Notes under the pieces: generated by a model | Database searches by the model: none | Told to the model about the DNA's origin: nothing | The model's input: the letters and a program-made list of their open reading frames with translations, nothing else | From: a bacterium | GTDB taxonomy: Bacteria > Elusimicrobiota > Elusimicrobia > Elusimicrobiales > UBA9959 | NCBI GenBank assembly: GCA_021811185.1 | Contig: JAJZPL010000004.1 | Location: 1-64,000, forward strand | DNA: 64,000 nucleotides | Direction of reading: 5' to 3' | Part shown: positions 44,720 through 56,215 of the stretch, piece by piece | Position numbering within the stretch: the stretch's first letter is position 1 | How the letters are laid out: each line of letters begins with the position of its first letter | Translations under genes and position numbers: made by a program

Positions 44720-46393
44720 ATGGCCACAGATATTGAGATAGCCCGCACCGTAAAACTTAAGGATATTAAAGAAATAGCCGCGCGGCTCGCCGTGCCCGAG
44801 GACGACCTGGTCCTGTACGGCAGGCATAAGGCCAAACTGCCGCTAAAGCTGATAGACCTCGAGAAGGCTAAAAAGAACAAGCTGGTCCTGGTTTCCGCCA
44901 TCTCGCCCACGCCCGCGGGCGAGGGCAAGACCACCGTTTCCATAGGCCTCGCGCTGGGGCTGAACAGGATAGGCAGGAAGACCACCGTGGTGCTGCGCGA
45001 GCCGTCCCTCGGGCCGGTGTTCGGCATCAAGGGCGGCGCCACCGGCGGCGGGCATTCCCAGGTGCTGCCGATGGAGGACATCAACCTGCATTTCACCGGC
45101 GATTTCGCCGCCATCGAGAAGGCGCATAACCTGCTGGCCGCCATCATCGACAACAATATCCAGAATAAGAAGAGCAACCTGGGGATAGACCCGCGCACCG
45201 TTACCTGGCGGCGCGTGATGGACATGAACGACCGGTCCCTCCGGAAGATCATCGTGGGCCTGGGCGGTACCATGTCCGGCGTGCCGCGCGAGACCGGCTT
45301 CGACATCGTGGCCGCTTCCGAAGTGATGGCCATCCTCTGCCTGTCCAACGACCTGCAACACCTTAAAGAGAAGCTCGGCAATATTTTCGTCGGCTATACA
45401 TATGACCGCAAGCCGGTCTATGCGCGCGACCTGAAGGCCAACGGCGCCATGGCCGCGCTGCTCAAGGACGCCATCATGCCGAACCTGGTGCAGACCAGCG
45501 AGGGCACGCCGGCCATCATCCACGGCGGGCCCTTCGCCAACATCGCGCACGGCTGCAACTCCATCATAGCCACGCGTATGGGGCTGACCCTTTCCGACTA
45601 CGTGGTGACCGAGGCCGGCTTCGCCTTCGAACTCGGCGCGGAGAAGTTCCTGGACATCAAGTGCCGCTACGCAGGTCTCTGCCCCAGCGCGGCCGTGCTG
45701 GTGGCCACCGTGCGCGCGCTCAAGTACCACGGCGGCGTGGCGCTTAAAGATCTGAACGCCCCCGACCCCGCCGCGGTCAGGCGCGGGCTGGAGAACCTGG
45801 AAAAGCACGTGGAGAACATGAAGCAGTTCGAGCTTTCCCCGGTGATCGCCATCAACAAGTTCGCCACCGATACCGAAGAGGAAATAGCCGTGATCCTGAA
45901 GCGCTGTGCGGAACTTGGCGTGCCGGCGGCCGTGGCCGACGTGTGGGGCCAGGGCGGCGCGGGCGCGGCGGAACTGGCGGAGCTGGTGGCGAAAGCCGTG
46001 GAATCCAGGACCGCCTGCGGCTTCAAGCCGGTTTACGAATGGGAATGGCCGGTTGAAAAAAAGATAGAGGCCATCGCCGGCAAGATGTACGGCGCCAGGC
46101 ACATCGATTATACGGCGAAAGCGAAGAAAGACCTGGAGAAGATAAACGGGCTGGGGCTGGATAAACTCCCGGTCTGTATCGCCAAAACGCAGAAGTCCCT
46201 GTCGGATAACCCGGAGCTTATCGGGCGGCCCAAGGACTTCGTGGTGACCGTGCGCGAGATCGAGATAGCCTCCGGCGCCGGCTTCATCATCCCGATAACC
46301 GGCGATATCATGCGTATGCCCGGCCTGCCGGAGCACCCGGCCTCCGAGAACATCGACATAGACGCCAACGGCAACATAACCGGGCTGTTCTAG
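44720..46393 (+). CDS. fhs: Formate-tetrahydrofolate ligase
   Basis: 557 aa, normal length. ATP-dependent formation of 10-formyl-THF from formate, the entry of formate into C1 metabolism. The ATP loop TPAGEGKTT is at residues 64-72, followed by EPSLGPVFGIKGGATGGG and MEDINLHFTGD. AGAGGA precedes the ATG. rtcB follows after 29 bases. No other Wood-Ljungdahl genes are in the window. Confidence 0.96.
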   Translation: MATDIEIARTVKLKDIKEIAARLAVPEDDLVLYGRHKAKLPLKLIDLEKAKKNKLVLVSAISPTPAGEGKTTVSIGLALGLNRIGRKTTVVLREPSLGPVFGIKGGATGGGHSQVLPMEDINLHFTGDFAAIEKAHNLLAAIIDNNIQNKKSNLGIDPRTVTWRRVMDMNDRSLRKIIVGLGGTMSGVPRETGFDIVAASEVMAILCLSNDLQHLKEKLGNIFVGYTYDRKPVYARDLKANGAMAALLKDAIMPNLVQTSEGTPAIIHGGPFANIAHGCNSIIATRMGLTLSDYVVTEAGFAFELGAEKFLDIKCRYAGLCPSAAVLVATVRALKYHGGVALKDLNAPDPAAVRRGLENLEKHVENMKQFELSPVIAINKFATDTEEEIAVILKRCAELGVPAAVADVWGQGGAGAAELAELVAKAVESRTACGFKPVYEWEWPVEKKIEAIAGKMYGARHIDYTAKAKKDLEKINGLGLDKLPVCIAKTQKSLSDNPELIGRPKDFVVTVREIEIASGAGFIIPITGDIMRMPGLPEHPASENIDIDANGNITGLF

Positions 46394-46422
46394 GCGGCGG
46401 GCGCGGGGGCGCCCGGTAAGCG

Positions 46423-47868
46423 ATGATAAATTCACCTCATATCCGGCGCCTGGACGCTTCCAGGCTGGAGCTCCTGCCTTCCTATAAGCAGGGGATGAAC
46501 GCTTCCGCCGTGGTCTATGTGGACGCGGAGCTGGAGGCCCTGGTAGAGGACCGGGCCCTGGACCAGATAGCCAACGCCGCCGCCCTGCCTGGCATAGTCG
46601 GCCGCGCGCTGGCCATGCCCGACATCCATACGGGTTATGGTTTCCCTATAGGCGGCGTGGCGGCTTTCGACGCCGGGAGCGGCGTGATCTCGCCGGGCGG
46701 CGTAGGCTACGACATCAACTGCGGCGTGCGCCTGCTCGCTTCTTCCATCGAAGCTTCTTCCATTAAAGATATACAAAGCCTGGCCTCGGCGCTTTATTCC
46801 CGCATCCCGGCCGGCCTGGGCGCGGGCGGGGGTGTGCGCCTGGACAAACATGGCGGGGAAGCGCCGCTGATAAAGGGCGCGGCCTGGGCGGTGGAACAGG
46901 GCTTCGGCAGGAAGGAAGATTTGCTGCACGCGGAGTCTTTTGGCTGTATGGACGGGGCGAACCCGCACGCGGCCAGCCGCCGGGCGCTGGAGCGCGGACG
47001 GGACCAGCTGGGCACGCTGGGCTCGGGCAACCATTTTTTGGAACTGCAGGAAGTAACAGATATTTTCGACGAGGCCGCGGCCGGGGCCTTCGGGATCTTT
47101 AAAGGCCAGCTCACCGTAATGCTGCATACCGGCTCACGCGGTTTCGGCCACCAGGTCTGCTCGGATTTCATGGAAGTGATGCGCGCGGCGGCGCGCCGCT
47201 ACGGGATCCAGCTGGCCGATCCCCAGCTGGCGGCGGCGCCGTTCCGCAGCACCGAGGGGCAGGACTACTTCGGGGCCATGCAGGCGGCCGCCAACTACGC
47301 CTGGGCCAACCGCCAGGTGCTCACCGGGCTGACGCGGGACATCCTTGGCGAGGCGCTCGGCCTGGGCGAGAACGCGCTGGGCCTGCGCCTGGTCTACGAC
47401 GTGGCACATAATATCGCAAAGCTTGAGGAACACGTAGTGGACGGGAAAAAGGTACGCGTAGTGGTGCACCGCAAGGGCGCCACCCGCGCCTTCGGCCCCG
47501 GCCACCCGGAGCTGCCCGCCGCTTACGCGGCCGCCGGCCAGCCCGTTATCATCCCGGGCGACATGGGCCGGGCCTCCTACCTGCTGGCCGGCACCAGCGC
47601 GGCCCTGGCCGAAACTTTCGGCTCGGCCTGCCACGGGGCCGGCCGGGCCTTGTCCCGCCACGACGCCACGCGGCGCGCCCGCGGAAGGAACATCGCCGAG
47701 GAGCTGGCCGCCAAGGGCGTCTGGGTGCGCTCTTCCGATCCCGCCACGCTGGGCGAGGAAATGCCCGAGGCTTACAAGGACGTGGAGCTGGTTGTGAAGG
47801 TGATAGCGCAAGCCGGCATAGCCCGCAAAGTAGCCCGGTTCCGGCCCCTAGCCGTGATAAAGGGTTAG
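46423..47868 (+). CDS. rtcB: RNA-splicing ligase RtcB
   Basis: 481 aa GTP- and Mn-dependent RNA 3'-phosphate ligase. Metal and active-site motifs are present: PDIHTGYGFPIGG, Cys100 in GYDINCGVRL, GSGNHFLELQ, HTGSRGFGHQ and the guanylylated His in CHGAGRALSR. No archease or RtcA is adjacent. It follows fhs closely and may share its transcript. Likely role in RNA repair or tRNA ligation. Confidence 0.94.
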   Translation: MINSPHIRRLDASRLELLPSYKQGMNASAVVYVDAELEALVEDRALDQIANAAALPGIVGRALAMPDIHTGYGFPIGGVAAFDAGSGVISPGGVGYDINCGVRLLASSIEASSIKDIQSLASALYSRIPAGLGAGGGVRLDKHGGEAPLIKGAAWAVEQGFGRKEDLLHAESFGCMDGANPHAASRRALERGRDQLGTLGSGNHFLELQEVTDIFDEAAAGAFGIFKGQLTVMLHTGSRGFGHQVCSDFMEVMRAAARRYGIQLADPQLAAAPFRSTEGQDYFGAMQAAANYAWANRQVLTGLTRDILGEALGLGENALGLRLVYDVAHNIAKLEEHVVDGKKVRVVVHRKGATRAFGPGHPELPAAYAAAGQPVIIPGDMGRASYLLAGTSAALAETFGSACHGAGRALSRHDATRRARGRNIAEELAAKGVWVRSSDPATLGEEMPEAYKDVELVVKVIAQAGIARKVARFRPLAVIKG

Positions 47869-47895
47869 CCCGCCCCCGCGCCCCCCGCGCTGAAA

Positions 47896-47904
47896 TGTTA
47901 AAAT
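47896..47904 (+). promoter_or_regulatory. Extended -10 promoter of the radical SAM membrane operon
   Basis: TGTTAAAAT, a TGn extended -10 with hexamer TAAAAT, lies 32 bases before ATG 47937 in the gap after rtcB, suggesting that a separate transcript starts here. Confidence 0.5.
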
Positions 47905-47936
47905 AGCGTTTGGGGAAATACAAAGCCGTAGGATCT

Positions 47937-49304
47937 ATGCCGAACCGGGATTATCAATTCATCGAGAGCACCGTCAGCCTGTGCCCGGGCTGCATGAAGC
48001 GGGTGGACGCCAAGATCGTGCTCCGTGGCGGCAGCATCTACCTGCTTAAACATTGTCCCGAACACGGGGAGCAGGAAGAGCTTCTGGAAGAAGACGCCGT
48101 GTACTACCTGAACCGGATGGCCTACGATAAGCCCGGCACCATTTCCAAAACGCAGGCCGAGCGAAAAGACGGCTGCCCTTTCGACTGCGGGCTCTGCCCC
48201 GAACACGACCAGCATACCTGCATAGGCCTGATAGAAGTTACCCCTAAATGCGACATGCAGTGCCCGGTCTGCTACGCCGGCAGCGGCAGCGGGGGGGACT
48301 ACCTGCCGCTGGAGAAGATAGGCGAAATGCTGGAGTTCTTCCGGGATTCCGAATACGGCAGCGCCGAGATCCTGCAAATAAGCGGCGGCGAACCCACCAC
48401 CCACCCGCGGATACTCGATATCATCGCTTTGGCGCGCAAGAAAGTTAAATACGTGTTCCTGAACACCAACGGCCTGCGGCTGGCCGAAGACGAGAGCTTC
48501 GCAGCGGAGCTGGGGCGGTTCCAGGGCGGCTTCGAGATCTACCTCCAGTTCGACGGTTTCGAAAAAGAAACACATGAGCGGCTGCGCGGCAGGGACCTTT
48601 CCGAAATTAAGCGCAAAGCCCTGGCGAACCTGGCGAAATATAAAGTGCCGGTGACCCTGGTGGTCACGGTGGCCAAGGGCGTTAACGACGGGGAACTGGG
48701 GCGCGTCGTGGAGTTCGGCATCAATGCCGGCAATATCCGCGGCATCAATTTTCAGCCGGTGGCGCTCTGGGGCCGCCTAGGGAATGTGGACAGGAAAGAG
48801 CGGGTGACCGTCACCGGCATCATAGCCCGCCTGGAGCAGCAGACCAAGGGGATGCTGAAGAAGAGCGACTTCGTCCCCCTGCCCTGCGACGTGGACCGGG
48901 TGGCCCTGACCTATCTGTACCGCTCCGGCGGCGGCTTCACGCCGCTCACCCGGGACCTGGACATAAAAGCCTGCCTCCCGGCGATAAATAACACTTTTAA
49001 CTTCGACCCGGAAGACTTCATGAAAGACCTGGCTAAAAAAGCCCCGGGCGCGGCCGCCTGCTGCTGCGGCGCGGACCTGCTTAAAAATTTCAAGAAGATC
49101 ATCCCGGGCGAGTACCTGCTGAAGTCGGAGCAGAAAAAGGTGGAGTACGTGAACGAGAACACGTTCCGGATCAGCGTCACGTCCTTCATAGACGCCCATA
49201 ACTTCGACATGAAGTCGATGAAGAAAGAGTGCGTGCACATGATTACCCCGGACCTGAAGAAGATACCTTTCTCGGCGTATAACATGCTGTACAGGAACAA
49301 ATGA
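47937..49304 (+). CDS. Radical SAM protein resembling the tetraether synthase (MJ0619/Tes) family
   Basis: 455 aa from ATG 47937 (AGGA just upstream; a TTG at 47910 is the alternative). The N terminus has a CPGC pair (Cys16, Cys19) and CPEHG (Cys40). Next comes GCPFDCGLCPEHDQHTC (Cys80, 84, 87, 95). The radical SAM cluster is Cys105-x3-Cys109-x2-Cys112 in KCDMQCPVCYAG, then QISGGEPTTHP. This order of extra cysteines before the SAM cluster is the layout I know from MJ0619/Tes-type proteins, which join lipid tails. A C-terminal ACCCGAD patch is also present. Substrate here is inferred, not shown. Overlaps the next gene by four bases. Confidence 0.85.
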   Translation: MPNRDYQFIESTVSLCPGCMKRVDAKIVLRGGSIYLLKHCPEHGEQEELLEEDAVYYLNRMAYDKPGTISKTQAERKDGCPFDCGLCPEHDQHTCIGLIEVTPKCDMQCPVCYAGSGSGGDYLPLEKIGEMLEFFRDSEYGSAEILQISGGEPTTHPRILDIIALARKKVKYVFLNTNGLRLAEDESFAAELGRFQGGFEIYLQFDGFEKETHERLRGRDLSEIKRKALANLAKYKVPVTLVVTVAKGVNDGELGRVVEFGINAGNIRGINFQPVALWGRLGNVDRKERVTVTGIIARLEQQTKGMLKKSDFVPLPCDVDRVALTYLYRSGGGFTPLTRDLDIKACLPAINNTFNFDPEDFMKDLAKKAPGAAACCCGADLLKNFKKIIPGEYLLKSEQKKVEYVNENTFRISVTSFIDAHNFDMKSMKKECVHMITPDLKKIPFSAYNMLYRNK

Positions 49305-49930
49305 CCGAAACTTTATGCCATCTCTTCGACACGCCCGAAAAGATCTTTTACGCGGCGGTGGAAATATCCGTTATGCTGTCCGTCTTTGCCGTGCTGGTGG
49401 CCATCCTGATAGACTTCGCCGAGTTCCAGAAGCGGGAACAGGTTAAGAAGGAAAAAAAGAGCGTGGTGGAAACGGGTACGATGCTGATGTTCTTCTTCGG
49501 CTTCTACGCTATCCTCCGGACGGGCGCCGGGCGCATCGCTTTGGAATTTTCGCCCCTTAAGATAATCCTCATGGTTTCAGGGGCGCTCCTGGTGATAACC
49601 GGCTGCGCGGTGAACGTGAGGGGCCGGCTGGACCTGGGCAGGAACTGGGGCAACCAGATAAAGATCTACGGCGACCATACCTTCGTCACAGGCGGGATGT
49701 ACCGGCTGGTGCGGCATCCGCTGTACGCCTCGCTGGTCTGGATGTTCCTGGGCGCGAGCCTGATCTACCAGAACTGGCTGGCGCTGGCGGCCGCTCTCTT
49801 TATCTTCATCCCTTTCATGCGCTACCGGGCCAGGCAGGAAGAAGAACTGCTTGCCAGGGAATTCGCCGCTTACGCGGACTATCGGAAAAAGGTGGGGATG
49901 TTCTTCCCCAAACTATGGAACAAAAATTGA
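49301..49930 (+). CDS. Isoprenylcysteine/phospholipid methyltransferase-like membrane protein
   Basis: 209 aa with about five hydrophobic helices. The C-terminal half shows the ICMT/PEMT pattern: GMYRLVRHPLYASLVW and, after a helix pair, RARQEEELLAREFAAYADYRKKV, which bind SAM at the membrane face. Likely methylates a lipid or membrane-anchored substrate. Overlaps the radical SAM gene (ATGA) and the DUF4395 gene by 16 bases. Confidence 0.85.
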   Translation: MTETLCHLFDTPEKIFYAAVEISVMLSVFAVLVAILIDFAEFQKREQVKKEKKSVVETGTMLMFFFGFYAILRTGAGRIALEFSPLKIILMVSGALLVITGCAVNVRGRLDLGRNWGNQIKIYGDHTFVTGGMYRLVRHPLYASLVWMFLGASLIYQNWLALAAALFIFIPFMRYRARQEEELLAREFAAYADYRKKVGMFFPKLWNKN

Positions 49931-50373
49931 AATTGGTGAAACCTGTGTCGGTCCCGTCGGCGGCTTTCGCCTTCTGCCGGTACACGCTGGCCCTGCTGGT
50001 CTGGGCCGCGCTGATCTTCCGTTTTAAGCCCTTAATGATTGTGGCTTTTATACTCTTCGCGCTTTCCGCTATCTTAAAGGTAAGGCGCGCGCCGCTGATC
50101 CTGCTGTATTCTTACACGGTAAATAAAATCTTCAAGTCTTCCGACGAGGTGCTGAACGAGGACGCCATGCGGTTCGCGCATCTCATGGGCGCGATCTTCA
50201 GCCTGGTCTGCATAGGCCTGCTTTATTTCGCTCCGCCAAGAATAGGCTGGTCCGCGGTGCTGGTCTTCGCCATCATGAAGAGCATTTCCGCCCTGGGCTT
50301 CTGCCCGGCTTCCAAACTGTACGAATGTATGTCGAAAGGCGGCTGCTGCGCTTTTACCGGGAAGCATGGTTGA
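49915..50373 (+). CDS. DUF4395 family membrane protein
   Basis: 152 aa with about four hydrophobic helices and the DUF4395 features: VSVPSAAFAFCRYTL near the N terminus, FKSSDEVLNEDAMRFAHLMG between helices and a cysteine-rich C terminus (GFCPASKLYECMSKGGCC). Function unknown. Overlaps both neighbours, so it is an obligate part of this operon. Confidence 0.82.
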   Translation: MEQKLKLVKPVSVPSAAFAFCRYTLALLVWAALIFRFKPLMIVAFILFALSAILKVRRAPLILLYSYTVNKIFKSSDEVLNEDAMRFAHLMGAIFSLVCIGLLYFAPPRIGWSAVLVFAIMKSISALGFCPASKLYECMSKGGCCAFTGKHG

Positions 50374-51136
50374 GCATTACACGCCCGAACACTGGGGCAT
50401 AAGGCCCATCCTGTTCCACGCCGGGGGCTTCGGCGTGCCGGCTTATTCTTTTTTCGTGCTGCTCGGCCTCGCCGTGGGCGTGGCGGTTTATTTTTATGAG
50501 GCTAAGCGGGGGAAGAAGCTTACCGAGCAGGGCTTCTTCATCTTCATAGGTTCGCTGGCCGGAGGCGCGCTGGGCGCCAAGTTTACGGAACTGGTCATTA
50601 ATTATAAGGCAGCGCTCGCCGCCGCTTCCCCGGAGCTTCTTTTGTCCGGCCGGACCATCGTGGGCGGGCTGATAGGCGGCGCGGCGGGCGCGGCGCTCAC
50701 CAAGAAGGCCATGGGTCTTACGGAGCGGCGGGGAAATTTCTTCGCTCCGGCCATAGCGGCCGGGCTGGCCATAGGGCGGCTGGGCTGTTTCTTCCAGGGC
50801 TGCTGCTACGGCGTACCGACCTCCCTGCCCTGGGGCGTGAACTTCGGCGACGGTATCCCCAGGCACCCTACCCAATTGTATGAATCCGCTTTCATGCTCA
50901 TTATGTTCGTCTACCTGGAAAAGGTTAAGAACCGCGCGAACCTGGCGCCGGGCCGCCTTTTCGACTTGCTGATGATGAGTTACTTTACTTTCCGCTTCTT
51001 GATCGAGTTCATCCGGGTGGAGAAACCCGCTTTCTGGGGCCTTTCTGTGTTCCAACTCATCTCCTTAGCTGTTATAATTTACCTTAACAGGGGCCTCATA
51101 CTTGACTACGCGCGGGGACAAAAAAACTATGCCTGA
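50366..51136 (+). CDS. Prolipoprotein diacylglyceryl transferase-like protein (atypical)
   Basis: 256 aa with about seven helices. The Lgt features RHPTQLYESAF and RFLIEFIR are present. Key positions differ from classical Lgt: the loop with the catalytic His (FHGG) reads RTIVGGLIGG, and the GRxGNF motif reads GRLGCFFQGCCYG. Such Lgt-like proteins may transfer a glyceryl lipid moiety to something other than lipobox proteins. Overlaps DUF4395 by eight and the next small gene by eight bases. Confidence 0.82.
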   Translation: MVEHYTPEHWGIRPILFHAGGFGVPAYSFFVLLGLAVGVAVYFYEAKRGKKLTEQGFFIFIGSLAGGALGAKFTELVINYKAALAAASPELLLSGRTIVGGLIGGAAGAALTKKAMGLTERRGNFFAPAIAAGLAIGRLGCFFQGCCYGVPTSLPWGVNFGDGIPRHPTQLYESAFMLIMFVYLEKVKNRANLAPGRLFDLLMMSYFTFRFLIEFIRVEKPAFWGLSVFQLISLAVIIYLNRGLILDYARGQKNYA

Positions 51137-51473
51137 AGAACAAAAACAGGGAACTGAAAGTGCGCCCGCTACCCGAGGGTATTACAAGGATACAGGCAGC
51201 AAGGTGACCGACTTCCTCGTGGGGTTCCTGGGTTATCCCATAATTATGTTGCTCGCCCAGATGGCGTTCGGGCCAGATATTCCCATGAGGGGGAGTTCTC
51301 TGGCGGGGTTGGGCACGGCGATCGTAAGTTTAGCCTTTACGGTGTTTTTTGTGGTGTTCGCCTACAAGCGCGGCCGAAAGTTCATCGCTATCGGGATACT
51401 CTCCCTGCTTATAGTCCCGCTGATAGCCGCCGGCAGCTGCCTTCTGATCGTGATGGCGGTCTCGGGACATTAA
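51129..51473 (+). CDS. Small membrane protein, tandem paralogue 1
   Basis: 114 aa from ATG 51129, inside the end of the Lgt-like gene. Begins MPEEQKQ, then GYYKDTGSKVTDFLVGFLGYP and three hydrophobic helices, ending with GSCLLIVMAV. The next gene encodes a clear paralogue, so the frame is genuine. No family recognised. An in-frame extension to 51102 is rejected because the paralogue also starts MPEEQKQ. Confidence 0.78.
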   Translation: MPEEQKQGTESAPATRGYYKDTGSKVTDFLVGFLGYPIIMLLAQMAFGPDIPMRGSSLAGLGTAIVSLAFTVFFVVFAYKRGRKFIAIGILSLLIVPLIAAGSCLLIVMAVSGH

Positions 51474-51476
51474 GTT

Positions 51477-51800
51477 ATGCCGGAAGAACAAAAACAAACG
51501 CCGAGCGCGCCTGAACAGCCTGGTTATTACAAAACTACCCGCAGCAAAGTTACTGACTTCCTGCTGGGTTTTTTCGGCTTTCCTGTCCTTCTTTCTTGGG
51601 GTGTCACGATGCTCTCGCGCGTGCGCGATCCGAACCTGGGCAGCTACGCCCTGGCGGCCGCCGCCCTGATAACGCTGGGCTCCTGCTTTTATGCCGTGCA
51701 GAAAGGCCGGAAGTATATCGCCATAGGGATAGTCTCTTCGATCATGATCCCGCTGCTCATCGTCGGCAGCTGCATGCTGGTGATCTACGGAGGCCGTTAA
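51477..51800 (+). CDS. Small membrane protein, tandem paralogue 2
   Basis: 107 aa, paralogue of the preceding gene: MPEEQKQ start, GYYKTTRSKVTDFLLGFFGFP, QKGRKYIAIGIVSSIMIPLLIVGSCML. Three hydrophobic helices. Three bases separate the two genes. Function unknown; probably a subunit of the same membrane assembly. Confidence 0.78.
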   Translation: MPEEQKQTPSAPEQPGYYKTTRSKVTDFLLGFFGFPVLLSWGVTMLSRVRDPNLGSYALAAAALITLGSCFYAVQKGRKYIAIGIVSSIMIPLLIVGSCMLVIYGGR

Positions 51801-51822
51801 ATATCATGAGCGGGACGAACGT

Positions 51823-52614
51823 ATGATCCGCTGGTGCGCCTACTGCCAGAGCTATATGGGTGAATCCGAGCCGTTCGCCGATTTTTCCCTGACGCACGGC
51901 CTTTGCCCTAAATGCGCCGCCAGCGGGATCGCCGAAGATAAAGGCGTTTCCGGCCGCATGCGGCCTTTGGTTAACTTTTTCCTAAAATTAAGGAACGAGG
52001 TCAGGGCGGGGATAAAGGCCGACCCGGCAGTATGGGTTAAAAACGCATATGACCTGGGCATAAAGCCCGAAGACCTTCTTATCGGAGTTATCCAGCCCGC
52101 GTTATATGAAATAGGCGAACTCTGGGCTAAGGGTGAAGTGACGGTGGCTATCGAGCACCGCTTCAGCGCGTTCGCCGAAGAGATGGTCGGCGCGGTTTAC
52201 CGGCATTATCCCGAGCTCGCAGGGCACAGGCAGGCCAAAAAACCTGACGTGCTGCTTACTAACGCGGACGGGAATTACCATACCCTAGGGCTTAAATTCC
52301 TGGAGGTGCACCTGCTCTCCCGCGGCCTCAAGACTTATACCGTGCTGCCGGGGCTGCCCGGCAGGGAGATCCTGGAGCTGGCCAGGTCGCTGAAGCCTAA
52401 AGCCCTCGGCCTCTCCGCGGCGCTGCTGCCGCAGCTCAGGGAGGTAAGGGAATTCGCCGGCGAGCTCACTAAAATGCCGAAGGCGGACAGGCCCCTGCTG
52501 CTGCTTGGCGGGTTTCCGCTTAAAGAAGGCCTCGTGCTGCCTGCGGAACTTCAGGTGAGGTGCTGCCGCGGCATACAGGACCTGGACCTTTCCGATATCA
52601 GCTCAAACCGGTAA
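51823..52614 (+). CDS. Cobalamin-binding CarH-like sensor protein with N-terminal zinc motif
   Basis: 263 aa. Residues 5-31 carry CAYC and HGLCPKC, a Cys4 motif like those ending many sensor kinases. A helical B12 cap domain follows with W101-x9-E111-H112, the W-x9-EH motif of CarH-type adenosylcobalamin photoreceptors. The Rossmann B12 domain has NYHTLG at 151-156, giving the lower-axial His153. There is no MerR DNA-binding domain, so output may be by protein contact. Lies 22 bases after the small membrane paralogues. Light sensing is inferred only from the motif. Confidence 0.8.
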   Translation: MIRWCAYCQSYMGESEPFADFSLTHGLCPKCAASGIAEDKGVSGRMRPLVNFFLKLRNEVRAGIKADPAVWVKNAYDLGIKPEDLLIGVIQPALYEIGELWAKGEVTVAIEHRFSAFAEEMVGAVYRHYPELAGHRQAKKPDVLLTNADGNYHTLGLKFLEVHLLSRGLKTYTVLPGLPGREILELARSLKPKALGLSAALLPQLREVREFAGELTKMPKADRPLLLLGGFPLKEGLVLPAELQVRCCRGIQDLDLSDISSNR

Positions 52615-52643
52615 AAAGGACGCTGCGTTCCGCATAAAAATAT

Positions 52644-53342
52644 ATGGACATAAAATGCCCTCACTGTTCCCGGACCGTGCCCGCGGAGAACATCAATATC
52701 CAGACCAGCATCGCCAAGTGCGGGTCCTGTAACGCCGTGTTCGGTTTCGCCGACAAGGTGCCCGGGGCCTCGGCTTTCGGTCCGTCGAAGAGAACGGTGG
52801 AGATGCCAAGTAATTATACCGTCGCCAATGAGGGCGCGGACCTGGTGATCACGCGCAGGTGGATGAACTGGAAGTACGTGATGATGCTGGTGTTCTGCGT
52901 ATTCTGGGACGGCTTCCTGGTGTTCTGGTACTCCATAGCTTTCAGCCAGGGCGGGCCGCTGGCGATGAAGCTGTTCCCGGTGCTGCACGTGGCCGTAGGC
53001 GTGTTCCTAACTTACAGCACCCTGGCCGGCTTTCTCAACAGGACCAAAATAACGCTCAATACCGGCGAGCTGCGCATAAAGCATTATCCGCTGCCGTGGC
53101 CGGGCAACAAAGTCGTGCCGCGGCCGGAAATAGAGCAGCTCTTTTGCGAAGAGATAATGCATTCCAATAAGAACGGGACCTCTTACACCTACAACCTGCA
53201 GGCGGTAAAGACCGGCGGCGGGCGCCTGAAGCTGGTTTCCGGCATGGACAAGCCGGAGGACGCGCTGTTCCTGGAACAGAAGATAGAAGGCTTCCTCGGC
53301 ATCACGGACCGGCCCGTAGCCGGCGAGATGCGCCCGGCCTAA
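52644..53342 (+). CDS. Zinc-ribbon membrane protein of unknown function
   Basis: 232 aa. The N-terminal zinc ribbon KCPHC...KCGSC resembles the MJ0042/zinc-ribbon type. Two hydrophobic helices follow (about residues 77-98 and 108-132), then a soluble C-terminal domain (TKITLNTGELRIKHYPLPWPGNK, EDALFLEQKIEGFLG) that looks pleckstrin-like. Last gene of the operon, closed by a terminator. Confidence 0.78.
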   Translation: MDIKCPHCSRTVPAENINIQTSIAKCGSCNAVFGFADKVPGASAFGPSKRTVEMPSNYTVANEGADLVITRRWMNWKYVMMLVFCVFWDGFLVFWYSIAFSQGGPLAMKLFPVLHVAVGVFLTYSTLAGFLNRTKITLNTGELRIKHYPLPWPGNKVVPRPEIEQLFCEEIMHSNKNGTSYTYNLQAVKTGGGRLKLVSGMDKPEDALFLEQKIEGFLGITDRPVAGEMRPA

Positions 53343-53365
53343 CGCGGCGCTTAATATAAGGAAGG

Positions 53366-53386
53366 GCCCGGCTTGCCGGGCTTTTC
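53366..53386 (+). terminator. Intrinsic terminator of the radical SAM membrane operon
   Basis: GCCCGGC-TT-GCCGGGC followed by TTTTC, between convergent genes. Confidence 0.75.
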
Positions 53387-53808
53387 TATTTGAAGATGAT
53401 CAGGAGCGCGCCGGCGGCTATCATGGAAGCCCCCAGCCACTGGTACGCTCCCAGGCGTTCGCCCAGGAACATTACCGACAGCAGAATAGCGAAGACCAGG
53501 CTGAGCTTGTCTATAGGCGCTACCAGCGAGGCGGGGCCCGTCTGCAGCGCGCGGTAGTAGCAGATCCAGGACAGCCCCGTGGCCAGGCCTGACAGCACGA
53601 GGAAAATAAGGCTGTGCCGGTTCAGCAGCAGCGGGTTCTTCCATTCGTGCCGGGCCGCCACCAGCGCGCCGAGAAAGGCGATAATAACGAAGGTGCGTAT
53701 AAGTGTGGCCAGATTCGACGGGATGTCTTTCACTCCCACCTTGGCCAGTACCGCCGTCATCCCGGCGAACAGCGCCGAACCTACCGCGTAAAGTTTCCAG
53801 TCGGTCAT
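53386..53808 (-). CDS. EamA/DMT family half-size transporter
   Basis: 140 aa with five predicted helices, one EamA unit (LAKVGVKDIPSNLATLIRT, GLSWICYYRALQTGPASLVAPIDKLSLVFAILLS, LGASMIAAGALLI). Short EamA proteins act as dimers, often exporting small metabolites. AGGAAG precedes the ATG, nine bases after the antiporter stop, so the two are co-transcribed. Substrate unknown. Confidence 0.88.
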   Translation of the reverse strand: MTDWKLYAVGSALFAGMTAVLAKVGVKDIPSNLATLIRTFVIIAFLGALVAARHEWKNPLLLNRHSLIFLVLSGLATGLSWICYYRALQTGPASLVAPIDKLSLVFAILLSVMFLGERLGAYQWLGASMIAAGALLIIFK

Positions 53809-53817
53809 GATCTTCCT

Positions 53818-54948
53818 TTAGAGAATATCCTCTTCTTCCAGCGGCGGGAACCAGCGCTGCGCCACGAAAGTCGGGATAACGGCGCTGGCTATCAGCACGC
53901 CGGTGAGCACCGAGTACTGCTCGGCGTTCAGCAGGCCGCCCTTAAGCCCGAACAGCGCGGCCATCAGCCCGAAGGTGAGGCCGGTGGACATCAGCAGCGT
54001 GAAGTAGTTCCTGTTGGCGGGGAAATATTTGCCGGCCAGGAAATACACACCGGCGAACTTGGCCGCCTGTTTAACCGCGAACAGCGCGGCAAAAAGCCCG
54101 GCCGCGCCCCACAGCGCGCCAAGCGAAACCTTCATTCCGGCCACTATAAAGAAGAAAGGCGTGATGAAGGCGTAGGCTACCGTGCGCAGGCGGTTCTTCA
54201 CGGGGGCGGCCTTGGTGGAGGCGAAGTGTCCGCTCATTACCAGGCCGAAGAGGAAGGCCGGCAGCATGGCCTGGCTGGACCCGAGTTCGGCCAGGTAGAT
54301 GAAGGCGAGCAGCACGAAGAAGATATATTTTATCTCTGGCTCTATCACCTTGCCCGAGAGCGCCGGGTGGTTGAGCAGCCCGGCGGAGAAGCGCCCGGCG
54401 AACACCAGGAAGCCGCCGGAGACGCCCAGGAAGAGCAGGGTGTAGGGGTTGGGCTTGAGGAAAGCCAGGCTTAGCGCCAGCGCGGTGAGGGTGTTGGTGA
54501 GGAAGGTGCAGGCCATCAGCAGTTTGCCGGTGAGGGTCTTGCTGAGGCCGGTCTCGGTGAGCACGGAGTAGACGACGGCTAGCGAGGTCTCGGAGAGGGC
54601 TATGCCGGTGATGAGCGAGGCCTGCGGGCTCCAGCCTGCGGCGTAGCGGCAGAAGATTGCGCCGGCGGCGAAGGGGGCGAGGAAGGAGAACAGGCTGAGC
54701 GTGGCGGCTTGCCTGAAGTTCTCTTTCAGGAGTTTGGCGTCTACTTCGGCGCCGGAGAGGAAGGTGAGCACTATGCCGCCGAAGCCGGCGATGTAGGCCA
54801 TCCAGTCGGCGGCGTGCAGGCCCAGACTGCCGGCGGTGAGGCCGAGCAGGATCTCGAAGATGGCTACCGAGAGCCCCAGCCGCAGGCTCAAGAGGCTGGC
54901 CGCGAAGATCATCAGTCCGGCGATCAAGGGTATTTTGTCAGGTTCCAT
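53818..54948 (-). CDS. Kef/Nha-type cation:proton antiporter
   Basis: 376 aa from ATG 54948, with about 12 helices of the CPA2 family: FGGIVLTFLSGAEVDAKLL, ALSETSLAVVYSVLTETGL, AFITPFFFIVAGMKVSLG and MSTGLTFGLMAALFGL. No C-terminal TrkA-N domain. GGAG lies 11 bases before the ATG. The frame continues upstream to 55023 only because it runs through repeat copy 6. Confidence 0.9.
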   Translation of the reverse strand: MEPDKIPLIAGLMIFAASLLSLRLGLSVAIFEILLGLTAGSLGLHAADWMAYIAGFGGIVLTFLSGAEVDAKLLKENFRQAATLSLFSFLAPFAAGAIFCRYAAGWSPQASLITGIALSETSLAVVYSVLTETGLSKTLTGKLLMACTFLTNTLTALALSLAFLKPNPYTLLFLGVSGGFLVFAGRFSAGLLNHPALSGKVIEPEIKYIFFVLLAFIYLAELGSSQAMLPAFLFGLVMSGHFASTKAAPVKNRLRTVAYAFITPFFFIVAGMKVSLGALWGAAGLFAALFAVKQAAKFAGVYFLAGKYFPANRNYFTLLMSTGLTFGLMAALFGLKGGLLNAEQYSVLTGVLIASAVIPTFVAQRWFPPLEEEDIL

Positions 54949-54957
54949 AATCGTTCT

Positions 54958-55094
54958 CCGGGTCCCGCCACGGGGGCCGGAACGCAAAACACGCTTCGGC
55001 CACACCGTGGCCTCGCTCGACATTCGGCCCTCGCGCTATGCAAGCTCGGGCCTCACGACGGTTTTGCTTATCCGGTCCCCGTGGCGGGACCCGG
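54958..55094 (-). repeat. Palindromic repeat, copy 6
   Basis: Reverse copy whose two 23-base outer arms (54958-54980 and 55072-55094) are complementary at 22 positions yet have a sequence unlike the other copies (GGTCCCGCCACGGGG against CCCCGTGGCGGGACC). The inner hairpins GGCCC/GGGCC and GGCCAC-ACC-GTGGCC and the GCAAAAC/GTTTTGC pairing are kept. No inverted partner is seen within 5 kb. Confidence 0.85.
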
Positions 55095-55112
55095 GGCCTC
55101 ACTATGTAAAAC

Positions 55113-55138
55113 GACCTCTACCTTAGCGGGTAGAGGTC
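55113..55138 (-). terminator. Hairpin downstream of dctP
   Basis: Perfect ten-base stem GACCTCTACC/GGTAGAGGTC with loop TTAGCG; on the minus strand it is followed by GTTTT, ending the dctP operon. Confidence 0.6.
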
Positions 55139-55210
55139 ATTAGTCCCTGCGGACGGTTTCCCCGGGGGGCCGGGGCGGCGGACTTCATCGCCGTGTTCAA
55201 ATTATACAAA

Positions 55211-56215
55211 TTACTTCTTGGGCGCGCGGAAGGTTCTCAGCGCGTTCTCGACTTTGTCCAGGAGTTCCCTGGAGTAGAGCTTGCCTGCCAGCGCCTGGCG
55301 GGCGTCTTCTCCGGCCTTCTCGAGTTCGGTCACCACGGCGGGGCTGGCGGGTTCGGTGAACACCAGGCCTTTCTTTTTAAGGATGCCGATGGACTGCTCG
55401 TTCTCCTTGCGGCTCTGCAGCGTGAGCGCGCGGAAGTATTTCTCTCCCAGCGCCAGCATGGTCTTCTGGTCGGCGGGGGTGAGAGTGTCGAAAGTCTTCT
55501 TGGAGATCAGCACCGCGCCGGAGGCGTTGGTGAGCGGCAGCGCGAACACGTACTTCATGCGCGCGAACCACTGCAGCGCTATCACGGAAAGGGGAGAGCC
55601 GTAAACGCCGTTGATCATGCCGGTCTGCAGCGAGCTCATCACGTCGGTGATGGAGAGCGGGATGGGTTTTATCTTCAGCGCGGCGAAGGTGGCCTCGGCT
55701 ATGGGGTCGCCTTCCCAGATCCACATCTTCACGTCCCGCAGGTCTTCGGGCCTGGTCACGGGGATGTTGGAGAAGATGTTAACGTTGCCCACTTCGGCCC
55801 AGCCCAGCAGCACGTAGCCGCGGCTCTCGAAGATCTTCCTGAAATCTGCGTCCATCGTCTTGTAGACGTAGTCTATCTCTTTGGCGTTCTTGAACAGGAA
55901 GGGCGTGTCCAGGATGCGCGCCTCGGGGGCCACCTCGCCTATGCCCACGCCGGTAAAACCGCCGGCCTGCAGCTGGCCCAGCCTGATCTTCCTCACTACA
56001 TCCTTCTCGTCGCCGGAGACGCCGCCGGGATAGATCTTGAACTTAACGCGGCCGTCGGTCTTTAACGTGGTCTCCGTGGTGAACTGCTTCATCGCCTTCA
56101 TCCAGGTGGAGCCGTCCGGCGCCAGCGTGGCGAATTTTATCATGGTCTGCGCCTTCAGCGGCAGCGCCAGCGCCATGGCTGTAAGGTATACGGCTGCGGT
56201 TTTAGAAAAGTTCAT
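55211..56215 (-). CDS. dctP: TRAP transporter substrate-binding protein
   Basis: 334 aa periplasmic binding protein. Signal peptide at residues 1-23 (ends LPLKAQ). The DctP fold shows in IKFATLAPDGSTWMKAMKQF, GQLQAGGFTGVGIGEVAPEARILDTPFLF and MINGVYGSPLSVIALQWF. It overlaps tatT by 14 bases, the known P-T pairing. The only TRAP permease genes in the window lie 11 kb away. Ligand likely an organic acid, not determinable here. Confidence 0.93.
   Translation of the reverse strand: MNFSKTAAVYLTAMALALPLKAQTMIKFATLAPDGSTWMKAMKQFTTETTLKTDGRVKFKIYPGGVSGDEKDVVRKIRLGQLQAGGFTGVGIGEVAPEARILDTPFLFKNAKEIDYVYKTMDADFRKIFESRGYVLLGWAEVGNVNIFSNIPVTRPEDLRDVKMWIWEGDPIAEATFAALKIKPIPLSITDVMSSLQTGMINGVYGSPLSVIALQWFARMKYVFALPLTNASGAVLISKKTFDTLTPADQKTMLALGEKYFRALTLQSRKENEQSIGILKKKGLVFTEPASPAVVTELEKAGEDARQALAGKLYSRELLDKVENALRTFRAPKK

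Follow-up and report, generated by a model that had tools for sequence, protein, structure and literature searches.

A Tes-superfamily radical SAM gene linked to an Lgt paralogue and to small membrane proteins with a helix cysteine in distant bacteria

The archaeal tetraether synthase (Tes) MJ0619 (PDB 7tol) is an enzyme that couples lipid tails, and its bacterial homologues have been treated as possible enzymes of branched glycerol dialkyl glycerol tetraether (brGDGT) synthesis (PMC8941075, PMC11868695), the second paper describing their activity as unconfirmed. The stretch of DNA analysed here (the window, 64,000 nucleotides, positions 1 to 64,000 of contig JAJZPL010000004.1, assembly GCA_021811185.1) belongs to a genome of the Elusimicrobiota (3.09 Mb, 79 contigs, completeness 93.6%, contamination 5.2%). 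It carries a cassette in which the gene of a radical S-adenosylmethionine (SAM) protein related to Tes stands together with the gene of a paralogue of prolipoprotein diacylglyceryl transferase (Lgt) and with genes of small membrane proteins bearing a cysteine in a membrane helix. Each protein family of the cassette is already known, and recurrence of the cassette in distant bacteria suggests an undescribed route of membrane protein modification. In a literature search from which most subscription papers and all preprints were absent, no description of a unit of Lgt paralogue, Tes-family radical SAM protein and membrane cysteine was found, nor anything pairing DUF4395 with prolipoprotein diacylglyceryl transferase or radical SAM with lipobox and diacylglyceryl, which agrees with the initial annotation of this DNA, where the unit was thought not to have been described before.

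The conserved unit consists of the radical SAM, ICMT-like, DUF4395 and Lgt-like genes and of one or two genes for small membrane proteins, present in the window as follows:

47937..49304, plus strand: radical SAM protein of the Tes/TrsS superfamily, in a separate clade (type I), as placed by Pfam, NCBIfam, PDB, motifs and tree
49301..49930, plus strand: membrane methyltransferase-like protein of the ICMT/PEMT type (Pfam ICMT, 50.8 over 24 bits)
49915..50373, plus strand: DUF4395 membrane protein with conserved cysteines FCR, GFC, YxC and CC (Pfam DUF4395, 53.2 over 24.5 bits; four-sequence alignment)
50366..51136, plus strand: Lgt-like protein, a paralogue within the prolipoprotein diacylglyceryl transferase family (Pfam LGT, 127.2 over 24.9 bits; PDB 5azb; residues)
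51129..51473, plus strand: small membrane protein 1, with Cys104 in the last helix (P-x6-C, K-x19-C), a proposed substrate
51477..51800, plus strand: small membrane protein 2, a paralogue of protein 1 with Cys99 in the last helix, also a proposed substrate

Sixty-six of the 68 aligned radical SAM sequences, two truncated rows being excluded, were placed in a quick tree with support from the Shimodaira–Hasegawa-like approximate likelihood-ratio test (SH-aLRT) only. Separate branches are formed by type I, which includes the window protein (4 rows, support 99), type II (13 rows, 100), type III (22 rows, 100), the Tes group (9 rows, 98) and the TrsS group (4 rows, 98), the last two named after the scanned members L113 and L104 and after motifs, with L118, inside the Tes group, scoring 345 (L and G numbers denote loci and genomes of our sample). 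Types I and III group together with a support of 94, and the position of type II is not settled by the tree. An Lgt-like gene, counted if it scored above 45 bits within the locus, accompanies 37 of the 39 rows of types I–III (4/4, 13/13 and 20/22) and none of the 27 rows (23 loci) of the other groups. The two type III misses are L097, which ends at a contig end, and L101, which has no such gene, and two of the positives, L086 and L102, are fragments. Both genes share a strand in all 36 scanned loci that contain them; in 35 of these they overlap or lie within about 1.1 kb of each other, and in the remaining one the distance is 2.5 kb.

The small membrane proteins of the window are duplicated, as had been noticed from the DNA, and match each other with phmmer E values of 6e-25 and 9.6e-25. 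Neither passes the cut-off of any Pfam or NCBIfam family, and none of the small proteins scanned at any locus reaches a Pfam cut-off. Such proteins were harvested mechanically as open reading frames (ORFs) of 45–215 residues on the same strand, with a hydrophobic stretch (cysteine scored zero), at most 120 bases from the cassette or from another such ORF. A helix cysteine was thereby found at 28 of 36 Lgt loci versus 3 of 25 loci without Lgt, and one of these three is the truncated L097. With a strict site, in which K or R is the nearest charge, 13–23 residues ahead of the cysteine, the counts are 25/36 versus 1/25 loci (Fisher p 1.7e-7) and, per protein, 33/43 versus 5/57 background small membrane ORFs (Fisher p 1.6e-12), related loci being taken as independent in both tests. 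In a hand-picked set the site is present in 40 of 46 proteins, and 42 sites include 12 with a spacing of 15 and 17 with a spacing of 19–20. The signal helix of Escherichia coli Lpp has the same 15-residue spacing as is found at cassette sites. A proline seven residues before the cysteine is common to most members of types I and II, the helix with the cysteine is either the first or the last, and two or three divergent copies in tandem are present at several loci.

The order radical SAM, ICMT, DUF4395, Lgt and small protein(s) is shared by the window, L030 (genome G237, from the phylum of the window), L007 (an Acidobacteria metagenome-assembled genome record, JAKAGC010000199.1, genome G340) and L079 (G533), although the two small ORFs that follow Lgt in L079 are both devoid of the cysteine site. 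In G144, a genome of the same genus as that of the window, the radical SAM gene is located at a contig end, and a second contig carries the last part of DUF4395 together with Lgt and a single small protein. The 13 type II loci combine radical SAM, Lgt and a longer ICMT protein of 326–368 residues, with the small protein mostly between radical SAM and Lgt. A DUF4395 domain at the end of these long ICMT proteins was considered and found no support (hhalign probability about 1%, 20 columns), both nonetheless ending in a cysteine-rich region. In type III, which comes mostly from the phylum of G340, Lgt is positioned upstream of radical SAM, often overlapping it, and DUF4395 is missing. With all clades mixed and E <= 1e-30, relatives of the radical SAM protein occur in 20 of 340 genomes of the window's phylum, its own genome included, and in 117 of 396 genomes of the phylum of G340. 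Of these, 19 genomes of the first phylum and 40 of the second had their wider surroundings fetched, second matches of some genomes being left out; 20 of the 40 are high scorers (G463, equal in score to G505, was omitted, and G340 had already entered as L007), and the other 20 were chosen among lower scores. Tandem pairs of divergent Tes/TrsS-related radical SAM genes, with no Lgt-like gene, are seen at L032, L033, L100 and L107. Scans of viral contigs with two queries gave no relatives.

Querying plasmids with the window's radical SAM protein returned ten records, nine of which were viewed (Haloarcula sinaiiensis was left out). Among the Actinomycetota, Nonomuraea gerenzanensis, Mycobacterium branderi pJCM12687 and M. 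avium pS2b combine an Lgt-like gene and small or proline-rich membrane proteins with radical SAM, and each of the two mycobacterial plasmids encodes two small proteins with CTGLNP in the last helix. In Persicobacter psychrovividus pPP1 (Bacteroidota) the Lgt-like gene overlaps the radical SAM gene by 8 bases, and DUF4395 is missing. Since these records add the Actinomycetota and the Bacteroidota, respectively, the trio of Lgt, radical SAM and small protein is found in three phyla and the pair of Lgt and radical SAM in four. In the other five records (Mycolicibacterium and four haloarchaea) radical SAM adjoins a methyltransferase gene and no Lgt is annotated, and none was detected in the four of them that were also scanned. 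By eye, a large gene resembling polyketide or polyunsaturated fatty acid synthases lies about 2.2 kb past the Persicobacter pair (L119, 9581–13351), and the Nonomuraea radical SAM protein (L124, 5935–7464) seems to have no CX3CX2C motif of the N-terminal cluster.

The initial annotation had thus been partly right about conservation of the gene set, as the core described above co-occurs in other genomes and the two last genes of the window run, for a B12-binding-fold protein and a zinc-ribbon membrane protein, lie outside it. Neither of these genes is present within the 9 kb fetched around the Lgt copy of G144, no best match to either protein was found in L007 or L029–L047, and a search without a positive control did not find the B12 protein in 8 other cassette genomes (E <= 1e-10). 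Both were rejected as members of the unit on these grounds.

The only strong match of the window radical SAM protein among solved structures is MJ0619 (E 1.5e-73), followed by SkfB (1.2e-8), so that its closest relative of known structure does belong to a lipid pathway. The extra cysteine pattern of MJ0619/Tes-type enzymes, attributed to it earlier, is also present, with a rubredoxin-type CX2CX20CX2H motif (C16/C19/C40/H43), an N-cluster CX3CX2C (C80/C84/C87) and the radical SAM CX3CX2C (C105/C109/C112). The protein nevertheless scores 346.1 bits with the TrsS model NF045646 and 315.5 bits with the Tes model NF045702, missing both curated cut-offs (490 and 450), and is therefore neither TrsS nor Tes. 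In a scan of ten relatives, the positive controls were recovered, acidobacterial L113 as Tes (562) and L104 as TrsS (571.5), while five cassette-type proteins (two of type II, two of type III and that of Persicobacter) scored 238–328 bits for TrsS and 176–285 for Tes. The low scores are not specific to the cassette, since L107, L118 and L120, which have no Lgt, likewise stay under both cut-offs.

The ligands of Tes are given in PMC9433317, where the labile Met439 and Tyr459 are described as conserved in 1000 archaeal homologues. In the column of Met439, threonine occupies all four type I rows, including the window, lysine all 13 type II rows, and methionine or valine 12 and 10, respectively, of the 22 type III rows. 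In the column of Tyr459, where the window protein has methionine, tyrosine is found in none of the 39 rows of types I–III, in all nine rows of the Tes group and in 6 of 14 other rows. Since Tyr459 variants of MJ0619 retained activity (PMC9433317), this position is not decisive by itself. The PFC cysteine is replaced by serine in type I and by aspartate or glutamate in type III but is retained in type II, and four further C-terminal cysteines (PLPC, CxC, KKxCVH) are conserved in type I. Membership of Tes was rejected on score, the Tyr and Met residues and the tree, and membership of TrsS on score and clade. For the radical SAM and DUF4395 proteins, structures predicted from two-row alignments had mean predicted local distance difference test (pLDDT) values of 49 and 58, respectively, too low for use.

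These comparisons bear on the view that the locus makes bacterial membrane-spanning lipids, with the radical SAM enzyme coupling fatty-acid tails like Tes and the remaining genes supplying or modifying the lipid. Homology to MJ0619 with all three motifs retained, methionine at the labile position in 12 of 22 type III rows, and the proposal of bacterial Tes homologues for brGDGT synthesis (PMC8941075) speak in its favor. We nonetheless regard it as improbable, as the score lies under the Tes cut-off, the clade is separate, the tyrosine of archaeal Tes is missing in 39/39 rows, threonine replaces methionine in the type of the window, and acidobacterial Tes-group loci contain no Lgt-like gene. 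The initial annotation, which took the protein to couple lipid tails as a Tes-type enzyme, is not supported on this point, in view of the scores, the Tyr and Met positions and the separate clade. Its other phrase, a lipid-anchor modifying system, describes the locus better than the coupling of lipid tails does, since no partners are more constant than the Lgt-like gene and the membrane cysteine.

The genome of the window has three LGT-family genes, of which the one in the cassette matches Pfam LGT least well. The cassette copy scores 77.3 bits with TIGR00544, short of the cut-off of 118.9, and 105 of 334 with NF000778. In E. coli Lgt, R143 and R239 are essential and H103 is critical (PMC4728403). 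The window copy retains R143, R239, E243 and R246 and has valine in place of H103. In 34 aligned cassette copies, R239 is invariant, and R143 is kept in 21, with lysine in 12 and serine in one. Cysteines of the pattern GC...GCC are conserved in the Lgt-like proteins of types I and II. The two other LGT proteins of the genome also carry them and have tyrosine and phenylalanine instead of H103; consequently, the cysteines and the loss of H103 were both dropped as signs of new chemistry.

The cysteines could in principle have another role, that of a membrane relay in thiol redox, sulfur or metal handling, in which the Lgt-like, DUF4395 and small proteins take part and no lipid is transferred. We consider this quite unlikely. 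Conserved cysteines in all three kinds of protein would fit it, and so would some haloarchaeal relatives without Lgt, located near genes for thioredoxin, DsrE, redoxin or peroxiredoxin. Against it, GC...GCC is not peculiar to the cassette, as just described, most type III copies keep the first cysteine only, and type III and Persicobacter loci have no DUF4395. The haloarchaeal plasmids in question, L121, L123 and L129, have a Tes/TrsS-related radical SAM gene with a methyltransferase gene immediately behind it.

The reading that we tentatively prefer, holding it at somewhat less than even confidence, is that of a dedicated maturation cassette for the small membrane proteins, in which the Lgt paralogue lipidates the helix cysteine and the radical SAM enzyme in turn alters the lipidated product. 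What the data establish is the linkage of an Lgt-like gene, a Tes-family radical SAM gene of a separate clade and, at most loci, one to three small membrane proteins with the helix cysteine, to which the type of the window adds ICMT-like and DUF4395 proteins. Counted in favor of the reading are the Lgt-like gene in 37/39 versus 0/27 rows, the shared strand and short distances, the spread of the trio to the Actinomycetota and of the pair to the Bacteroidota, the cysteine counts with their prevailing spacings of 15 and 19–20, the divergent tandem copies, the two fusions described below, and the retention of R239 and, in most copies, of R143. The cysteine would be placed in the outer half of a helix with a cytoplasm-facing start, as in the signal helix of a lipoprotein, except that a canonical lipobox is missing and the helix would run on beyond the cysteine. 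This geometry, together with the chemistry of the family, makes the cysteine a plausible substrate of the Lgt-like protein, which may put a diacylglyceryl or related group on the thiol, with no cleavage. The radical SAM enzyme might then alter this chain or the stretch of peptide around the cysteine, a methyl group may come from the ICMT-like protein, and the cysteine-rich DUF4395 protein may hold thiols reduced or scaffold the complex; for these three, co-occurrence is what points to a part in the process, and all chemical steps of the model are inferred. Were the cysteine indeed lipidated, chemistry of the lipoprotein type would reach internal membrane helices too.

Several observations weigh against this reading. 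H103 is found in 0/34 aligned cassette copies of the Lgt-like protein, although the two other LGT proteins of the genome lack it as well, and the sequences at the cysteines of the two small window proteins, AGSC and VGSC, fall outside the lipobox consensus [LVI][ASTVI][GAS]C given in PMC4728403. At 11 of the 36 Lgt loci no neighboring small protein carries the strict site, and in Persicobacter no small protein with a cysteine helix was seen among the listed plus-strand ORFs of at least 60 residues. A cysteine in a helix is by itself nothing rare, being present in 25 of the 57 small membrane ORFs of the background, and related loci are not independent. Finally, the radical SAM proteins of L038 and L039 end in a fused small protein with helix and cysteine, which fits the role of an anchor equally well; as sister rows that differ in sequence, these two probably inherited the fusion.

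Such an anchor is the basis of the main rival, according to which the small protein docks the radical SAM enzyme at the membrane, the enzyme acts on a quinone or a lipid free in the membrane, and the cysteine is either lipidated or packed against the Lgt-like protein. Besides the fusions, the order of the fused parts agrees with it, as the helix then starts on the side of the cytoplasmic enzyme. Two or three divergent tandem copies at several loci are harder to accommodate and favor a substrate over an anchor, and several type III loci have no small protein next to the pair. We rate the anchor as unlikely, if less so than the two alternatives above. More speculatively, and to be given very little weight, the products might be membrane-stapled proteolipids, the Lgt paralogue adding a diacylglyceryl thioether to the cysteine of the transmembrane helix and the Tes-family enzyme coupling, by radical chemistry, a tail of this outer-leaflet anchor to a lipid of the inner leaflet or to the peptide, which would give a protein with a covalent membrane-spanning anchor.

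The remaining features of the window run are these:

47896..47904, plus strand: weak extended -10-like element TGnTAAAAT with no -35 partner (sequence)
51823..52614, plus strand: B12-binding-fold protein, in the gene run and outside the conserved unit (Pfam)
52644..53342, plus strand: zinc-ribbon membrane protein, in the gene run and outside the conserved unit (Pfam)
53366..53381, strand not assigned: GC-rich stem-loop with a T-rich plus-strand tail, terminator-like (sequence)

Eight close-packed plus-strand ORFs are present at 47937–53342, in the layout reported earlier, with successive overlaps of 4, 16, 8 and 8 bases and then gaps of 3, 22 and 29. Pfam gathering scores are exceeded for Radical_SAM and Zn_ribbon_HMPTM, ICMT, DUF4395, LGT and B12-binding_2, while the scores for B12-binding and for the zinc ribbon encoded at 52644–53342 stay below theirs. 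The ICMT-like protein, above the Pfam cut-off, does not reach that of NCBIfam isopcys_mtase NF040696 (90.1 of 160 bits). The gene called a B12 sensor does encode a B12-binding fold, the sensor identity being without support (52 of 400 with the CarH equivalog model). An extended -10 promoter and a terminator had been proposed to flank the operon. The -10-like element exists; a promoter scan of 46300–54000 gave two promoter-like sites, both on the minus strand, versus 2.4 expected, so that a promoter before the operon is not above chance. The terminator-like stem-loop exists as well: on the plus strand the stem at 53366–53381, located between convergent genes, is followed by TTTTCTATTT, and the scan reported this stem for the minus strand alone. 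The genes immediately before the operon, at 44720–47868 and likewise on the plus strand, encode formate–tetrahydrofolate ligase and an RtcB-type ligase, and as the RtcB stop is 68 bases ahead of the radical SAM start, cotranscription is possible. Beyond the stem, convergent minus-strand genes (53386–56215) are of the EamA, Na/H exchanger and DctP types.

The cassette matters for surveys of bacterial tetraether lipids. Thresholds for bacterial Tes homologues in PMC8941075 were E < 1e-50, identity > 20% and over 400 amino acids, with an archaeal query. With an acidobacterial protein above the Tes cut-off as query, the window protein is matched at 32.6% identity and E 4e-63, a type III protein at E 7e-54 and a type II protein at E 7e-39 (database size set to 1e8), and the window and type III matches thus fall inside those thresholds, though the query here was acidobacterial and theirs archaeal. 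Surveys that read such matches as brGDGT capacity may include the Lgt-linked cassette, and some presumed makers of bacterial membrane-spanning lipids may do something else. Cassette proteins can be separated from Tes by the Tyr position, the two model scores and an Lgt-like neighbor.

In radical SAM systems of peptide maturation, which yield ribosomally synthesized and post-translationally modified peptides (RiPPs), short, fast-changing and often tandem proteins are encoded beside the radical SAM enzyme. The cassette resembles them in this arrangement only, since its short proteins are membranous, a Pfam scan shows no peptide-recognition domain, and the partner is an Lgt paralogue. TrsS (NF045646) is the best-scoring model, covering nearly the whole length of the window protein (346 bits), and shares the cysteines at the QHxC and PLPC positions; the window protein is nevertheless below 490 and in a separate clade, and the fetched TrsS-group loci have no Lgt-like gene. 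With Tes (GDGT-MAS; MJ0619, 7tol, NF045702) it has in common the superfamily (E 1.5e-73) and the rubredoxin-type, N-cluster and radical SAM motifs, and it differs in its score (315 of 450), the absence of the conserved tyrosine, the type I threonine for the labile methionine, another set of C-terminal cysteines and the Lgt-like neighbor. Lgt (PDB 5azb) shares with the window copy the Pfam LGT fold family and R143, R239, E243 and R246, whereas that copy, with 77 of 118.9 bits on the lgt equivalog, valine at H103 and the weakest of the three LGT matches in its genome, is linked to a radical SAM gene and to small membrane proteins.

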